Positions 552 through 40,087 of a DNA stretch of 40,087 bases are shown in pieces; position 1 is the first letter of the stretch, and each line of letters starts with the position of its first letter. The DNA lies in NCBI GenBank assembly GCA_018262475.1, contig JAGSYW010000004.1, positions 1 to 40,087 of the forward strand, in the 5' to 3' direction. The translations under genes and the position numbers were made by a program. The notes under the pieces were generated by a model. The model did no database searches. It saw only the letters and a list, made by a program, of their open reading frames with translations, and had not been told where the DNA came from. Origin of the DNA: Burkholderiaceae bacterium. Lineage in GTDB: Bacteria > Pseudomonadota > Gammaproteobacteria > Burkholderiales > Burkholderiaceae_D.

Positions 552-619
552 GGGTATGTGCCAAAAGAACTGGGTTCGGCCACTGTTTGCTAGGCTTGCT
601 GAAATACTGCCGGGAGTAT
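552..619 (-). repeat. Dispersed palindromic element, copy A (upstream of ybeX)
   Basis: The palindrome ATACT-GCCGGG-AGTAT lies at 604-619. On the minus strand it is followed after 43 bases by the box CACATACCC (552-560), which points toward ybeX. On that strand the palindrome is preceded by a run of A residues, as in copies C and D. Just after the box is a hairpin with arms CCGTC/GACGG and AAAAC/GTTTT. The same palindrome, spacing and second box recur at 16188-16256, 17592-17660 and 37817-37884. Confidence 0.7.
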
Positions 620-638
620 TTTTTTGCGTCCTGGTCGC

Positions 639-3418: not shown

Positions 3419-3826
3419 TTACTGCGTGGTTCCGGTGGTCGTGCTGGTGGTTGTTGTGGTCGTCGTTGTGGTAGAGGTGCTGCTTGACGAAGTTGAACTG
3501 GATGATGGGGCATTGGCCAGCGCTTTTTGCGCTTCTTCTTCCGTCAGAATCCAGATGCGGTCAACATCCCCCATCAGGTTCTTGGTGTATTTCCCCAAAA
3601 ATTTGCTGCCTGTCAGCGAAGCAGGCACCTGAATCAGGTTGTTCGTGTTCCAGATGCGCAGTGCCGCCGACACCGCTTGCGTAGTGCCGTCGATTGCGAT
3701 CGTCGGATAGTTTTCGAGCGACACAGTGCCGAATTTAGTGTTCGGCGGAAACATGCGTTCATATGCCATCGCCGAAAGCGTGGTCAGCGCCAGCAACAGG
3801 CCTGCCAGGAGTTTTCTGGTTTGCAT
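3419..3826 (-). CDS. Exported protein of unknown function with Ser/Thr-rich tail
   Basis: A 135-residue protein from the ATG at 3826 ([11 protein letters not shown]). It has a clear signal peptide: basic start, hydrophobic core [12 protein letters not shown], and an AMA-type cleavage site near residue 23. The mature part (about 80 residues) has no domain I recognise. It contains [19 protein letters not shown] and an [13 protein letters not shown] segment. The last 30 residues are almost only serine and threonine, likely a disordered linker or a modified tail. An in-frame extension to 3895 is open but would bury the signal peptide, so the shorter start is preferred. It is the first gene of the miaB operon and ends 5 bases before miaB starts. 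Confidence 0.75.
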
Positions 3827-11591: not shown

Positions 11592-11720
11592 GGGCCTGTC
11601 CAGAATTTTGTGTAAACGGACAATTGGCAGGAAACTGTCGCTTTGTCCGGAGTCCACATGATAACCAAGAAACACAACATCCCAGATGAACTCGTTGCCC
11701 AACTACTGGGGAACTACGGT
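11592..11720 (+). mobile_element. Truncated left end of an IS256-like insertion sequence
   Basis: The 99 bases from 11592 match 39989-40087 with only four mismatches. They begin with the presumed inverted-repeat start GGGCCTGTCCAG and include the upstream region and first codons of the transposase gene. After about codon 20 (near 11720) the similarity to a mutator-type transposase is lost, and no right end is seen. This is therefore a deletion remnant. The exact 3' limit is my estimate. Confidence 0.75.
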
Positions 11721-16187: not shown

Positions 16188-16256
16188 GGGTATGTGGAAA
16201 AAATCATGCTTTTGGCCAGAACTTCCGCAGCAGTTTTTAAATACTGACCCCAGTAT
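16188..16256 (-). repeat. Dispersed palindromic element, copy B (upstream of mutL)
   Basis: The palindrome ATACT-GACCCC-AGTAT lies at 16241-16256. On the minus strand it is followed by TTTAAAA and, 44 bases after the palindrome, by CACATACCC (16188-16196), pointing toward mutL. The half-site spacing and distance to the second box match the other copies. The sequence between the boxes is the least conserved of the four. Confidence 0.65.
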
Positions 16257-17402: not shown

Positions 17403-17566
17403 TCGCTGCTCACGCCTGCCGGTAGCGGTGCAGCGGCCGTTTTCGTTTGTGGGCGGCTGCCGTGCCTGAGATTCGCTGCGCTCATGTCAACTCGCGCCGC
17501 GCCTGCTTTGCATACGCTGCGCGAGGGGTGGGGGCGCTGGCGCCAAAATAATTGAACGAAAATGAC

Positions 17567-17661
17567 TTTTGGGTCAATAAGCTCAAAAAATATACTCCCT
17601 CCAGTATTTAAAATTGGCCAGTAAAAATGTGGCCTGGATGCCTGTTTTGGCTATATACCCC
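17567..17661 (+). repeat. Dispersed palindromic element, copy C (upstream of hsp20 operon)
   Basis: The palindrome ATACT-CCCTCC-AGTAT lies at 17592-17607, preceded by CAAAAAAT and followed after 44 bases by TATATACCC (17652-17660). It aligns over about 95 bases with the reverse complement of 37817-37910, sharing CAAAAAATATACTCC, AAATGTGG, TGTTTT and ATATACCCC blocks. Just downstream a hairpin with 8-bp arms GCATCATC/GATGATGC occupies 17671-17706. The rest of the 449-base gap 17403-17851 holds the promoter and leader listed separately; 17403-17566 shows nothing recognised. Confidence 0.8.
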
Positions 17662-17821: not shown

Positions 17822-17851
17822 CGTCAATCAACCAGAATGGAGGAGCATCTC

Positions 17852-18289
17852 ATGTACCGGTCCCTGTTTTCCCGCGACATGTTCGCGGAACTGGAGCGCC
17901 TGCAGCGCGAAATGCAGCGGGCGTTCGACCTTTCCCCCAGCATTCGCGGGGGCGCGCGCGGCGGTTATCCGGCGCTGAATGTCGGCAGCACGCCGCAGTC
18001 GGTCGAGATTCTTGCGTTCGCGCCCGGCATTGACCCGGCCAGCATCGAAGTTAACGTCGAGCGTGGCGTGCTGACGATCGCCGGCGAGCGCAAGAGCGAT
18101 TTGCCGGGCAAGGAAGAGAAAGCCAATGTGCATATCGATGAACGCTTTGCCGGCCGCTTCCGCCGCGTGGTGTCGCTGCCGGATGACGTCGACGGCACCA
18201 GCGCCGATGCGCATTACCGCGATGGCGTGCTGCACGTCAGTCTCAAGCGTCGCGCCGCCGCACAGCCGCGCCGTATCACTGTTCAGTAA
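17852..18289 (+). CDS. Small heat shock protein Hsp20, first of three
   Basis: A 145-residue alpha-crystallin protein that binds unfolding proteins to prevent aggregation. The core has VGSTPQSVEILAFAPGIDP, GVLTIAGERK, FRRVVSLPDDVDG and YRDGVLHVSLKRR, with a C-terminal RITVQ (I-x-V) oligomerisation motif. The N-terminal arm is short and rich in basic and acidic residues. The start at 17852 is chosen because GGAGGA lies 7 bases upstream; the ATG at 17837 lies before that site. The next hsp20 begins 15 bases after its stop. Confidence 0.95.
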   Translation: MYRSLFSRDMFAELERLQREMQRAFDLSPSIRGGARGGYPALNVGSTPQSVEILAFAPGIDPASIEVNVERGVLTIAGERKSDLPGKEEKANVHIDERFAGRFRRVVSLPDDVDGTSADAHYRDGVLHVSLKRRAAAQPRRITVQ

Positions 18290-36266: not shown

Positions 36267-36842
36267 CTATTCCTTCCCTTTTTCATCATATTTCTCTGCC
36301 CATTTGCTGACCCGGTAGCGGTAGATGGCAAGCTCTTCCGACCAGAAATCGCCCGGCAAACCGGCTTTCTGTTTCAGGTGCAGCATGAATTCGGCGACGG
36401 ACGGCAGTTGTTCCCACACTTGCGGCAGGAAGGTGCTGCGATGGCGGCCATATTCGATGATCACGCCGTCGACGTCGGGCTGCAGTTGTTCCAGCGCATG
36501 CGCTTCGCTGGTGAATTGCAGCGTTTCTTTCGGCGTCAGCAGTGACACTTCGATCTGGATTTGGCTGAATTCGGCCCGCTTCAATGGTGAAAATCGCGGG
36601 TCGCGCAATGCGGCTGCCTGCGCGTTGGCTTTCACGTCCTGCAGTAGCGGACGGTAGGCTTCAAGCGTGCCGATGCAACCGCGCAGTTGCCGGTTTTGCC
36701 TGAGCGTGACGAAACACGCGCCCGGTTCTGCCAGCCACGGGGCGGATTCGTCGGCATCCGCTGGTTGACCCAGCGCGGTCGAAATCGACGAGCGTGCTAT
36801 CGGCAGCAGCACCCGGCCGCGATCTTCGGTGTCATCATCCAT
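36267..36842 (-). CDS. amrA: AmmeMemoRadiSam system protein A (AMMECR1 domain)
   Basis: A 191-residue AMMECR1-domain protein with the invariant LRGCIGTLEAYRPL motif (RGCIG), then AALRDPRFSPL and the C-terminal WAEKYDEKGKE. The start at 36842 (MDDDTEDRG) overlaps the end of amrB by 8 bases; the longer open frame lies inside amrB. The domain is widespread in all kingdoms but its biochemical role is not settled. Confidence 0.95.
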   Translation of the reverse strand: MDDDTEDRGRVLLPIARSSISTALGQPADADESAPWLAEPGACFVTLRQNRQLRGCIGTLEAYRPLLQDVKANAQAAALRDPRFSPLKRAEFSQIQIEVSLLTPKETLQFTSEAHALEQLQPDVDGVIIEYGRHRSTFLPQVWEQLPSVAEFMLHLKQKAGLPGDFWSEELAIYRYRVSKWAEKYDEKGKE

Positions 36843-37668
36843 TGCCGGGTTCCTCGAAAAAGGCGAACGATGCATAGCCGACCACGCGGTGTTTGTCGCC
36901 AGCAGTATCGCCCGAATTGCACTGCGCAATCAGTTGCGGGCGAAGATGATGGCGTTTTGCCGCCAGCAGCAGCCCGTTGATGGGAACCGCGCCGCAGGCT
37001 TGCTGGTAATCCTGCAACGGCTGCAGAGACAGGATGTTTTCCATCGTTGCGCGGTCGATGGCGGTCGCCTGGTCGTAAGCCAGGAAATGCGACAGATCGG
37101 AACTGATGACAATCAGCGTTTCATCACCGCCCCACAACCGGTCGAGCACTTCGGCTACTTCGTCGGCGCTGGCGTTGCCAACCGCCAGTGGCAGCAGTTT
37201 GAATTCACCCAGCAGGCTTTGCAGAAACGGCAATTGCACTTCGAGCGAATGTTCGGCCGCATGGGCGGCCGCGCTGATGCCGATCTGCGGCATGTCGGCC
37301 AGGCTGGCGATGGCATCGCGGTCGAGTTCAATCGTGCCCAGCGGCGTGGCGAAGGCGTTTGCGTCCGGCAGCGCAAGTCCGCGAACCGCAACCCGGTGCG
37401 CAGGGCCGAGCAGGATGACGCGGGTAATCGTCGTCGCGTATTTCGCCAACCCGGCATAAGCGGCGGCGGCCGTTGTACCGGAATAAATGTAGCCGGCGTG
37501 AGGCACAATCAGCGCTTTCGGGGCGGGGGCCACAGTCGGACGGGTAGCAGCCAGCATCGCGCGCACGTCGCTGGCCAGCGCGGCGGGCTGCGCTGGATAA
37601 AAGGTTCCGGCAACTGCGGGTGGGCGGATGTTATGCACGCGTCGTCCCAGGTGGTTGGTCAAGGCCAT
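36835..37668 (-). CDS. amrB: AmmeMemoRadiSam system protein B (Memo family)
   Basis: A 277-residue Memo-family protein, related in fold to extradiol dioxygenases. It has the conserved RPPAVAGTFYPA start, the metal-type VPHAGYIYSG, LLGPAHRV and the AEHSLEVQLPFLQ and ISSDLSHF segments. The start at 37668 (MALTNHLGRR) matches the family N-terminus closely; upstream in-frame ATGs at 37701 and beyond have no similarity. No clear ribosome-binding site is seen. It is first of the amr operon, with palindromic element copy D about 150 bases upstream, pointing toward it. Confidence 0.94.
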   Translation of the reverse strand: MALTNHLGRRVHNIRPPAVAGTFYPAQPAALASDVRAMLAATRPTVAPAPKALIVPHAGYIYSGTTAAAAYAGLAKYATTITRVILLGPAHRVAVRGLALPDANAFATPLGTIELDRDAIASLADMPQIGISAAAHAAEHSLEVQLPFLQSLLGEFKLLPLAVGNASADEVAEVLDRLWGGDETLIVISSDLSHFLAYDQATAIDRATMENILSLQPLQDYQQACGAVPINGLLLAAKRHHLRPQLIAQCNSGDTAGDKHRVVGYASFAFFEEPGNG

Positions 37669-37816
37669 ATATCGGCATGAATGAACGGATTTTAAAGGCA
37701 TGTGGAGGGGCAAAGCTTTGTGAATCATCAGACAACCGCCCGCATGGCTCACACGCTCAGGCGTCCCGCAGCTGGCTTGCTGCGCCACGGTTTGTGAGTT
37801 GAAAGTAAAAGTGGTG

Positions 37817-37910
37817 GGGTATATGGCTAAAACATGCTTCTGCTCCACATTTTGCTGGCTGTTTTTAGATACTAGGTGGAGTATATTTTTTGGCCTTAAT
37901 GACTAAATAT
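37817..37910 (-). repeat. Dispersed palindromic element, copy D (upstream of amrB)
   Basis: The palindrome ATACT-AGGTGG-AGTAT lies at 37869-37884. On the minus strand it is preceded by CAAAAAAT and followed after 43 bases by CATATACCC (37817-37825). It aligns over about 95 bases with copy C. Next to it is a direct repeat TTTTTGGCCTTA at 37887-37898 and 37927-37938. The remaining part of the 437-base gap 37669-38105 holds a TATAAT at 38034-38039, probably the -10 box of ssb, without a good -35 box. Confidence 0.8.
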
Positions 37911-38105
37911 TAATTTCGGTCAGTTATTTTTGGCCTTATTACGCGAAATTGGCATCGGGGTCATTTATTCAGAGATTGTGGCGGCATTGCAGACAAAAGT
38001 GGTTTGGCGGTATCTGCCGTTGCGGCGATAACATATAATCGCTCATTACACGAAAATTTGATGCGCAGTGGCTGTTTGCGCCACGGCCGGTTAACAGGAG
38101 AGCAT

Positions 38106-38656: not shown

Positions 38657-39053
38657 ATTTTTATGGGGTGTTACTAAGCTGGCGACCAAACTCCTTTTTA
38701 ATCAAAAGGTTAGTGCAACTGAAACTTGGGTTTATCAATTTCTGCAGCGAGTGGTTGTTATCAAAATAGAATTTTATTGAGTTTTATTGGATTCCACTAA
38801 TTAGTGAAATCCAATAATTCCTTATAAAAATATGGCCAAGGCTTAGGTCTGCTTGCCTTGCGGAGGAAGCGGCCACGTCCGCCAACGGTTGGTATCCATG
38901 TCGGATGCAGAAAGGCTGTTTAGTTTCGTGCGATCATATTCCTCATCGCAGCATGGTCCTGTTCCGCGCCAAGGCCATGCTTGACGAGCTGATCGCCGGC
39001 TTTCCGCCGCGCTCGCCCATCCACCGCAAGACGTCACCGGAACGTTCGACAGC
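38657..39053. other. Gene-free stretch between ssb and the IS481-type gene
   Basis: The left part (to about 38830) is AT-rich with no ORF. The right part is GC-rich and differs in composition, so the join near 38830 may be the edge of acquired DNA. A 34-codon frame at 38953-39057 (MVLFRAKAMLDELIAGF..) overlaps the transposase start and may be a fragment of another gene. I cannot fix the IS481 left end. Confidence 0.45.
38785..38816. repeat. 32-base near-perfect inverted repeat
   Basis: Two 16-base arms (TATTGGATT.. and ..AATCCAATA, meeting at CACTAATTAGTG) pair with one mismatch and no loop. There is no T-run, so it is not a standard terminator. It lies in AT-rich DNA close to the composition change before the IS481-type gene. 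Confidence 0.6.
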
Positions 39054-40058
39054 ATGAGTACACGCATCCATCCGCAGGCCCGGACGACCCCAAAGATCAG
39101 GCAGGAGATCAAAGACTCCGGGCTGTCCGACCGCCAGGCGGCCAAGGTCTTCAACATTACCCGCGCCACCGCCGCCAAGTGGCTCAAGCGCGACGATGTG
39201 CAGGATCGCTCACACTGCGCGCACACCCTGCACACGACCTTGAGCGCGGTGCAGGAGGTCATCGTGCTGTCGCTACGCCAGTCGCTGTATCTGCCGCTCG
39301 ACGACCTTCTCTTCATCACACGTCAGTACATTAATCCGGACGTATCGCGCTCCGGCATAGCCCGCCTGCTCAAGCGCGAAGGCATGGCACGCCTGGAGGA
39401 CGTCATTCCCAAGGCCGAGGGCGAAACGATCCCGGCCAGGAAGACTTTCAAGGACTACGAGCCGGGCTTCCTGCACGTCGACATTAAATATCTGCCGCAG
39501 ATGCCTGACGAGACCTCGCGCCGCTACCTGTTCGTAGCCATCGATCGCGCCACGCGCTGGGTATTCCTGCACGTCTACGGCGACATGACGGAGCGCAGCA
39601 GCGTGGATTTCCTGCGCCGACTCAAGCTGGCTTCGCCGATCAAGATCGCCAAGATCCTCACCGACAACGGTTCGCAGTTCACCGACCGCTTCACGGCGAA
39701 GGATAAGAAACCCAGCGGCCAGCACGCCTTCGATAAGGGCTGCGCTAGCAGGGGCATCGAACACCGCCTGGCGCCACCGCGTCATCCGCAGACCAACGGC
39801 ATGGTGGAGCGCTTTAACGGACGCATCAGCGAGCTGCTGCAGCAGACCCGCTTCGACAGCCGAGCTGATCTGGAGGCGACCTTGCTCAATTATTTGAAGC
39901 TTTATAACCACCACATTCCGCAGCGCGCCATCGGCTCGACGACGCCGATCCAGGCCCTCAAGGAATGGCAACGTCGCAAGCCAGAATTGGGCCTGTCCAG
40001 AATTTTGTGTAAACGGACATTTGGCAGGAAACTGTCGCGTTGTCCGGAGTGCACATGA
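39054..40058 (+). CDS. IS481-family transposase, 3' end replaced by an inserted IS
   Basis: A 334-codon frame. The N-terminal helix-turn-helix (GLSDRQAAKVFNITRATAAKWLKR) is followed by an rve-type DDE domain with Asp in FLHVDIKYLP, Asp in ILTDNGSQFT and Glu in NGMVERFNGRI. The native part runs to 39988 (..WQRRKPEL). The last 22 codons plus the stop come from the left end of an IS256-like element and replace the usual C-terminal residues. The DDE triad is intact, but the altered tail and lost right end of the host IS make transposition unlikely. Confidence 0.88.
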   Translation: MSTRIHPQARTTPKIRQEIKDSGLSDRQAAKVFNITRATAAKWLKRDDVQDRSHCAHTLHTTLSAVQEVIVLSLRQSLYLPLDDLLFITRQYINPDVSRSGIARLLKREGMARLEDVIPKAEGETIPARKTFKDYEPGFLHVDIKYLPQMPDETSRRYLFVAIDRATRWVFLHVYGDMTERSSVDFLRRLKLASPIKIAKILTDNGSQFTDRFTAKDKKPSGQHAFDKGCASRGIEHRLAPPRHPQTNGMVERFNGRISELLQQTRFDSRADLEATLLNYLKLYNHHIPQRAIGSTTPIQALKEWQRRKPELGLSRILCKRTFGRKLSRCPECT

Positions 40059-40087
40059 TTACCAAGAAACACAACATCCCAGATGAA
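39989..40087 (+). mobile_element. Left end of an IS256-like element, continuing beyond window
   Basis: It begins GGGCCTGTCCAG and matches 11592-11690 with four mismatches in 99 bases. It lies within the 3' end of the IS481-type transposase gene, so it is a nested insertion. The right end and target duplication lie outside the window. Confidence 0.8.
40055..40087 (+). CDS. IS256-like (mutator-type) transposase, first 11 codons
   Basis: It reads MITKKHNIPDE and runs off the right edge. The ATG overlaps the stop of the interrupted IS481 gene (ATGA). The family call rests on this short start and on the longer, 20-residue start in the remnant at 11658. Confidence 0.65.
   Translation, partial: MITKKHNIPDE

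Follow-up and report, generated by a model that had tools for sequence, protein, structure and literature searches.

Pneumococcal BOX elements are modular, with a variable number of one module beside a core, and their sequence is not known to be related to that of the element described here. The matS sites of MatP are many conserved, dispersed sites for one small protein. CsoR, RcnR and FrmR belong to a family (DUF156, PF02583) of small metal- or formaldehyde-sensing repressors. The available text of PMC3902906 describes operators of this family as TAC..GTA inverted repeats (TACT-G6-N-AGTA for RcnR) and gives ATATACCCCTNAGGGGTATAT as the CsoR type 2 consensus; the FrmR operator has a C6 tract inside a T/A-rich inverted repeat (available text of PMC5016687), and type 1 and type 2 operators are defined in the available text of PMC12724321. 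REP and REPIN sequences are defined by a GTAG or CGTC tag beside a palindrome of 20-40 bp (available text of PMC3733652).

The two stretches compared here lie in a window of 40,087 nucleotides (the whole stretch of DNA that was analysed) and are copies of a dispersed extragenic element of about 115 bp. Like BOX, the element is modular, and the number of its 5' modules varies beside a core. It resembles matS and MatP in its way of working only, as many conserved dispersed sites with one small candidate binder, and differs in being longer and composite, in having a putative binder, and in spreading over more than a single macrodomain in the complete chromosome G153 (best 150 copies). As in ERIC/IRU, RUP, Correia and other small MITE-like repeats (available text of PMC2229807), it is shorter than 200 bp and non-coding, with many dispersed extragenic copies. 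Unlike in those repeats, full copies have no terminal inverted repeat, no target duplication was seen by eye (at copy flanks and at the empty sites of one relative), and the boxes are conserved at fixed places between species as the spacers drift. With REP and REPIN sequences and their RAYT transposases the element shares palindromes and an extragenic position between co-directional and convergent genes (as far as PMC3733652 and PMC8049555 describe them), but it is longer, contains several different palindromes without the tag defined there, and lives in genomes whose resident RAYT has other ends. Common to the element and to CsoR/RcnR/FrmR operators are a TAC..GTA inverted repeat, A/T-rich flanks, a G/C tract, and a last box that is half of the type 2 consensus. 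Known operators of this type are single or paired and lie in promoters, whereas the element occurs a hundred or more times, mostly at gene ends, with its boxes inside a larger repeat. A literature search, in which coverage of subscription journals was thin, found no description of such an element and no genome-wide role for this metal- and aldehyde-sensor family.

Copies within the window and anatomy of the element

Copy C, delimited by BLASTN and by a sequence profile, is a full element (5' palindrome module plus core) at 17546..17661 on the forward strand. Copy D, delimited by alignment to C and by the profile, is a full element at 37816..37929 on the reverse strand. The original prediction held that the two are homologous in opposite orientation over about 95 bases, beyond a shared palindrome and box. 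The homology is confirmed: no inverted-repeat pair of the window exceeds in length the one made by C and D (85 nt, 72%), and a 37-base right-hand pattern, taken from both copies outside the palindrome, matched the window only at C and D, even with up to 3 mismatches allowed, and occurred in 0 of 100 dinucleotide shuffles. The predicted limits were slightly short and left out one arm, the left-hand one, of another palindrome, AACTGACC..GGTCAGT. Both copies have an ortholog in the sister genome G068, at L201 18093-18208 for C (same place) and L201 1146-1260 for D.

Box 1 of C, TATACTCCCTCCAGTAT, lies at 17591..17607 (forward strand) and has the form of a CsoR/RcnR-type operator palindrome, ATACT-N6-AGTAT; box 1 of D, TATACTCCACCTAGTAT, lies at 37869..37885 (reverse strand). 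The last box is ATATACCCC in both copies, at 17653..17661 (forward) and 37816..37824 (reverse). A possible degenerate second 5' palindrome module precedes D at 37930..37970 on the reverse strand, likened by eye to the tandem module of locus L064. Two further copies on the reverse strand are core-only, without the 5' palindrome module: copy A at 552..629 (E 3.3e-11) and copy B at 16188..16256 (E 1.1e-9), the latter between mutL and a divergent VTT-domain gene. Outside the element, an Hsp20 gene lies downstream of C (17837..18289, forward) and a Memo-family gene downstream of D (36835..37680, reverse).

Full elements are about 114-117 bp long and start with the palindrome AACTGACC..GGTCAGT, whose loop is variable. 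Then come box 1, AAAAAATATACTCC-N2-CCAGTATTTAAAA (that is, ATACT-N6-AGTAT), a further palindrome GCCA-N9-TGGC, a stretch that varies between copies, TGTTTT, and finally the last box ATATACCCC, about 45 bp beyond box 1. Core-only copies such as A and B do not have the first palindrome, and some copies carry two 5' modules in tandem (e.g., L064 3652-3694 before 3692-3806). The 59 aligned copies contain both invariant and near-random columns, at fixed spacing. Full copies end in AAATAACTGAC and ATATACCCC and have no terminal inverted repeats; in G153, by contrast, most copies do have such ends, ATATACTC / GGGGAGTATAT.

Two other features of the window were recorded. An integrase-core IS-type gene at 39054-40058 (region 39054-40087) ends in a 99-base stretch that recurs at 11592-11690 with 96% identity, which probably marks 11592-11690 as a remnant of that insertion sequence. 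An A/T-rich palindrome lies upstream of this gene at 38772-38829, with overlapping 34-nt arms that are 82% complementary.

Spread among genomes and position relative to genes

BLASTN of the C segment against its own genome (G000, a 2.18-Mb draft, 91% complete) revealed a dispersed family: 40 of 122 candidate places were scored, with E-values from 1.7e-30 to 5.6e-19 besides C itself and apart from six short extra alignments. A profile built from 59 copies of two genomes found at least 150 places in G000, where the best 150 comprised 112 full-length copies, as judged by eye, and 38 partial ones, mostly core-only with the left third missing. The sister genome likewise held at least 150 places, with 128 full copies among the best 150. 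No element was found at E up to 1 in G041, a third genome of the genus. Run over a collection of 84,980 species genomes, an exact box pattern matched 51 stretches. Of these, 48 belong to one soil MAG, Burkholderiaceae bacterium CTSoil_111, and two to Undibacterium; the last, found elsewhere, looks like a chance match. Family samples of 294 and 392 genomes contained 13 and 16 genomes with matches, together 20 different genomes clustered in 3 of 44 genera; the weakest bearers, G053 and G281, rest on one or two matches. The other two bearing genera have core forms with their own consensus. G153 has at least 150 places, and a 400-kb sample of it gave 39 matches at 32 distinct places, with the last box inverted (GGGGAGTATAT) in 23 of the 39, direct in 4 and unassigned in 12. 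Plasmids, phages and viral contigs gave no match at the settings used. In both G322 (C1 1785158 and 1790092) and G292 (C1 1007618 and 1012552), two elements lie 4,934 bp apart, which suggests positions common to another species pair.

C and D are thus more than isolated binding sites, as had been proposed: they belong to a dispersed family in their own genome and in the sister genome. The proposal of a small mobile unit, possibly MITE-like, is likewise favored by the dispersed family, by empty counterparts in a genome of the same genus and by a distant relative with its own version elsewhere.

Gene contexts were taken from a simple purpose-written gene caller that tends to late starts, and distances to starts are rough. 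All 81 full copies examined, at partly pattern-picked loci, were intergenic. Convergent genes flank 40 of them, co-directional genes 31 (19 in one orientation and 12 in the opposite one) and divergent genes 4, and the remaining 6 have a neighbor off the locus. In a 400-kb sample of G068, chosen blind to copies, gaps of at least 100 bp contained an element in 10/22 cases between convergent genes, 27/89 between co-directional genes and 5/46 between divergent genes, with 0 elements inside genes; the occupied gaps of G153 were 4/23, 22/103 and 3/31, respectively. Thirty single loci of G153 comprised 8 convergent, 21 co-directional (11 and 10) and 1 divergent; this 11/10 split is preferred to a separate orientation count of 14 vs 12, which includes 7 elements matched on both strands. 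G103 had 11 co-directional, 5 convergent and 0 divergent positions, and one weak match within a gene. The element tends to avoid divergent promoter regions and has no clear direction relative to genes. A duplicated promoter cassette, as first suggested, does not fit full copies that lie mostly between convergent or co-directional genes, although C and D, like A and B, each stand upstream of a same-strand gene.

The preference for gene ends would also suit an RNA element, such as a terminator, a stabilizer of mRNA 3' ends or a small RNA. The 59 full copies fold more stably than shuffles (mean z -2.3 forward, -1.4 reverse), and paired cells show a weak excess of two-sided changes (14 vs 7.8 in shuffles, with 2 of 500 shuffles as high). 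Against this, both strands fold and the direction relative to co-directional genes is near even (19/12; 11/10). Pair 8-34 is open in 15 of 59 copies, the ATACT/AGTAT stem is nearly without variation, and paired columns generally are mostly invariant or broken on one side. The Rfam search of the window returned a tRNA only. We consider an RNA element quite improbable, and the small RNA gene of the original prediction is not supported.

A REP/REPIN family mobilized by a resident RAYT (Y1 transposase) was entertained on account of the single PF01797 gene in each of G000 and G068, with an element about 800 bp off, across an Hsp20-like gene. These RAYT loci (L234 1286-2390 in G000 and L232 1286-2390 in G068) consist of a single PF01797 gene between inverted repeats of its own, GGGGTCGGAGT and ACTCCGACCCC. 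Two PF01797 genes and a genome-specific repeat, GGGGTCAG..CTGACCCC, are present in G041, which lacks the element; the element consensus contains neither the GTAG nor the CGTC tag that the available text of PMC3733652 describes for REPs. Six further RAYT loci of genera g33 and g13 had no good element match within about 1.5 kb. With resident RAYT ends that differ from those of the element, the link was rejected, and we regard it as highly implausible.

Replication polarity was also dropped. The first 63 matches in G153 gave 43/63 (p 0.005), but the best 30 gave 19/30 (p 0.2), and with a better model 85 of the best 150 agreed (p 0.12); local GC skew in G000 and G068 revealed no element polarity. 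Regular spacing was absent among the best 150 copies of G153 (CV 1.03); the CV in G068 was lower (0.66, contig ends uncorrected). The closest two of the best 150 copies in G153 are 3,058 bp apart and a lower-scoring pair 2,351 bp apart; by an unsimulated estimate, random placement would give about 14 pairs closer than 3,058 bp.

Conservation between relatives

Thirteen elements of G000 have both flanking genes as neighboring orthologs in the G068 sample, and all 13 places are occupied there. The G041 sample permitted the comparison for seven G000 elements in six regions, and each of these places was empty. Three of these six regions hold a different, G041-specific repeat, GGGGTCAG..CTGACCCC (G041 loci L209, L211, L216, L217, L218 and L221), and GGGGTCAG occurs 27 times in 400 kb. 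Nine different G153 elements have a flanking gene whose ortholog is in the G103 sample, and no element accompanies any of these orthologs. The positions are therefore not ancient; like a mobile element, the family has spread afresh in separate lineages.

Column-by-column comparison of full pairs, with six aligned core pairs left out, separates the boxes from the spacers. In seven unbiased pairs, in which G000 copies were matched to contiguous G068 sequence, 415 of 440 positions in strongly conserved columns were identical (94%), as were 148 of 209 in intermediate columns, 80 of 154 in variable columns (52%) and 463 of 793 in the 60-bp flanks (58%). Fourteen pairs using loci L031-L081, which were picked by the exact box pattern and so favor intact boxes, gave 842/895, 292/403, 171/308 and 847/1488 for the same four classes. 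Fourfold-degenerate sites of 39 genes were 73% identical between the two genomes. Over the 21 pairs, conserved columns agreed in 94.0% of positions between orthologs vs 94.4% between non-orthologs, and variable columns in 52.4% vs 41.0%. Since the boxes are unchanged while the spacers have nearly lost the memory of their descent, we read the pattern as purifying selection at each element site.

The same data bear on a purely selfish, non-autonomous MITE-like element, whose boxes would serve a transposase, with no host use and with a likeness to operators arising by chance or convergence. Lineage-specific versions at different places (G153 vs G103, 0/9 shared), the empty counterparts in G041 and the tandem modules are all in keeping with it, and avoidance of divergent pairs is also expected from insertion followed by removal of harmful copies. 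It fares worse with the 13 of 13 places common to G000 and G068, where boxes are fixed and spacers drift; selfish residents would be expected to decay evenly. The search for a transposase with matching ends, which covered PF01797 only, found none, and the full copies lack terminal inverted repeats. We consider a purely selfish element unlikely, though a serious contender.

Operator likeness and the clade-type PF02583 gene

Box 1 and the last box match published CsoR/RcnR operator types in sequence. Box 1 reads ATATACTCC-N2-CCAGTATTT, and the last box is half of the CsoR type 2 consensus as given in the available text of PMC3902906. Known operators are usually TAC-X9-GTA, whereas the element in genus g1 has TAC-X8-GTA (57 of 59 full copies). 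In G153 elements the box 1 palindrome is mostly one base longer (X9, 16 of 27 copies) than that of the clade-type promoter of that genome, and the tract inside it is not G/C-rich. The motif ATACY-N6-RGTAT occurs 177 times in G000, 203 times in G068 and 132 times in G103, compared with 5, 2 and 2 for the reversed control; the excess is smaller in G153 (38 vs 14) and G094 (32 vs 10). In the element-free G041 there are 5 occurrences vs 2 in the control, and one of the five is the promoter of a PF02583 gene.

PF02583 genes were present in 18 of 18 tested bearers, in G041 and in 4 of 10 other non-bearers. By protein search, 126 of the 392 family genomes, from 9 of 44 genera, have the clade-type PF02583 gene; among them are all 20 bearers, G041 and 105 other element-free genomes of the sample. 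The gene is common to bearers and not sufficient for elements, and the association is confounded by descent. Among 16 clade-type promoters, 10 contain exact ATACY-N6-RGTAT and four, from genus g13, have one base changed; the palindrome is one base longer in G252 and missing in G003. The clade-type protein is identical in G000 and G068 at 103 of 103 residues; the genes differ silently at 25 of 312 bases, with fourfold sites the same at 45 of 61, and 0 of 71 other orthologs in the sample had identical proteins. A core element precedes the gene by 217 bp in G000 (weak, E 7e-4) and by 216 bp in G068 (E 1e-15). Inspection by eye shows similar cores ahead of the gene in four g13 genomes, and another core lies before the FrmR-like paralog in G153 (E 4e-7). 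The remaining PF02583 loci examined had no upstream core match, except that of G032, where the match begins inside the promoter palindrome itself. In NCBIfam the clade-type protein scores far below the cut-offs for FrmR, RicR and RcnR; among solved sequences its nearest matches, all weak, include InrS, CsoR and FrmR. In PF02583 genes of genus g33 (L322, L324, L328, L331, L333 and L301), the first codons (M-A/S-D-T-P-P) contain ATACTCCCCC or ATACCCCCCC. By eye, this is a half operator about 70 bp after the promoter palindrome, which mimics the two-box layout of the element.

The element may instead consist of conserved host sites bound by one or more other proteins, with an incidental likeness to DUF156 operators. 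Many regulators use palindromes of similar size, just one of the three palindromes here has a match, and a PF02583 gene is found in many element-free genomes. The half-site, spacing and flanks nevertheless match both the published operator and the PF02583 promoter of the same genome, and we judge another binder improbable.

With about even confidence, we favor a network of candidate sites for a clade-specific CsoR/RcnR/FrmR-family protein, which would have arisen by mobile-like spread. We infer the operator identity of the boxes from the sequence match and the co-occurrence with the gene. In such a network, MITE-like spread in separate lineages would have been followed by purifying selection that kept the existing copies. 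The clade-specific DUF156 protein (103 aa) would bind box 1 as tetramers and also contact the last box, and the tetramers could bend or bridge DNA at a hundred or more places. The sites might then serve nucleoid organization or protein buffering in place of promoter control. Several observations speak against a network of this kind: most elements lie at gene ends, where a repressor would have little to repress; neither box 2 nor the 5' module has a candidate binder; the gene also occurs in element-free genomes; the spacing in G153 elements mostly differs from that in the promoter of the same genome, and the motif excess is small there and in G094; and the G153 positions recur nowhere in the G103 sample. 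More tentatively, a CsoR/RcnR/FrmR regulator may have turned into a sequence-specific chromosome organizer, whose tetramers would bridge or wrap sites that were spread by mobility and fixed by selection, with release perhaps under metal, formaldehyde or thiol stress.

From a single genome it is difficult to tell selfish copies of small extragenic repeats from useful sites; here, sister species separate them by shared places, frozen boxes and drifted spacers. If the boxes are operators of one family of 103-aa repressors, a single protein would suffice to test directly why bacteria keep such repeats, and a family of metal or aldehyde sensors would acquire a role across the genome.
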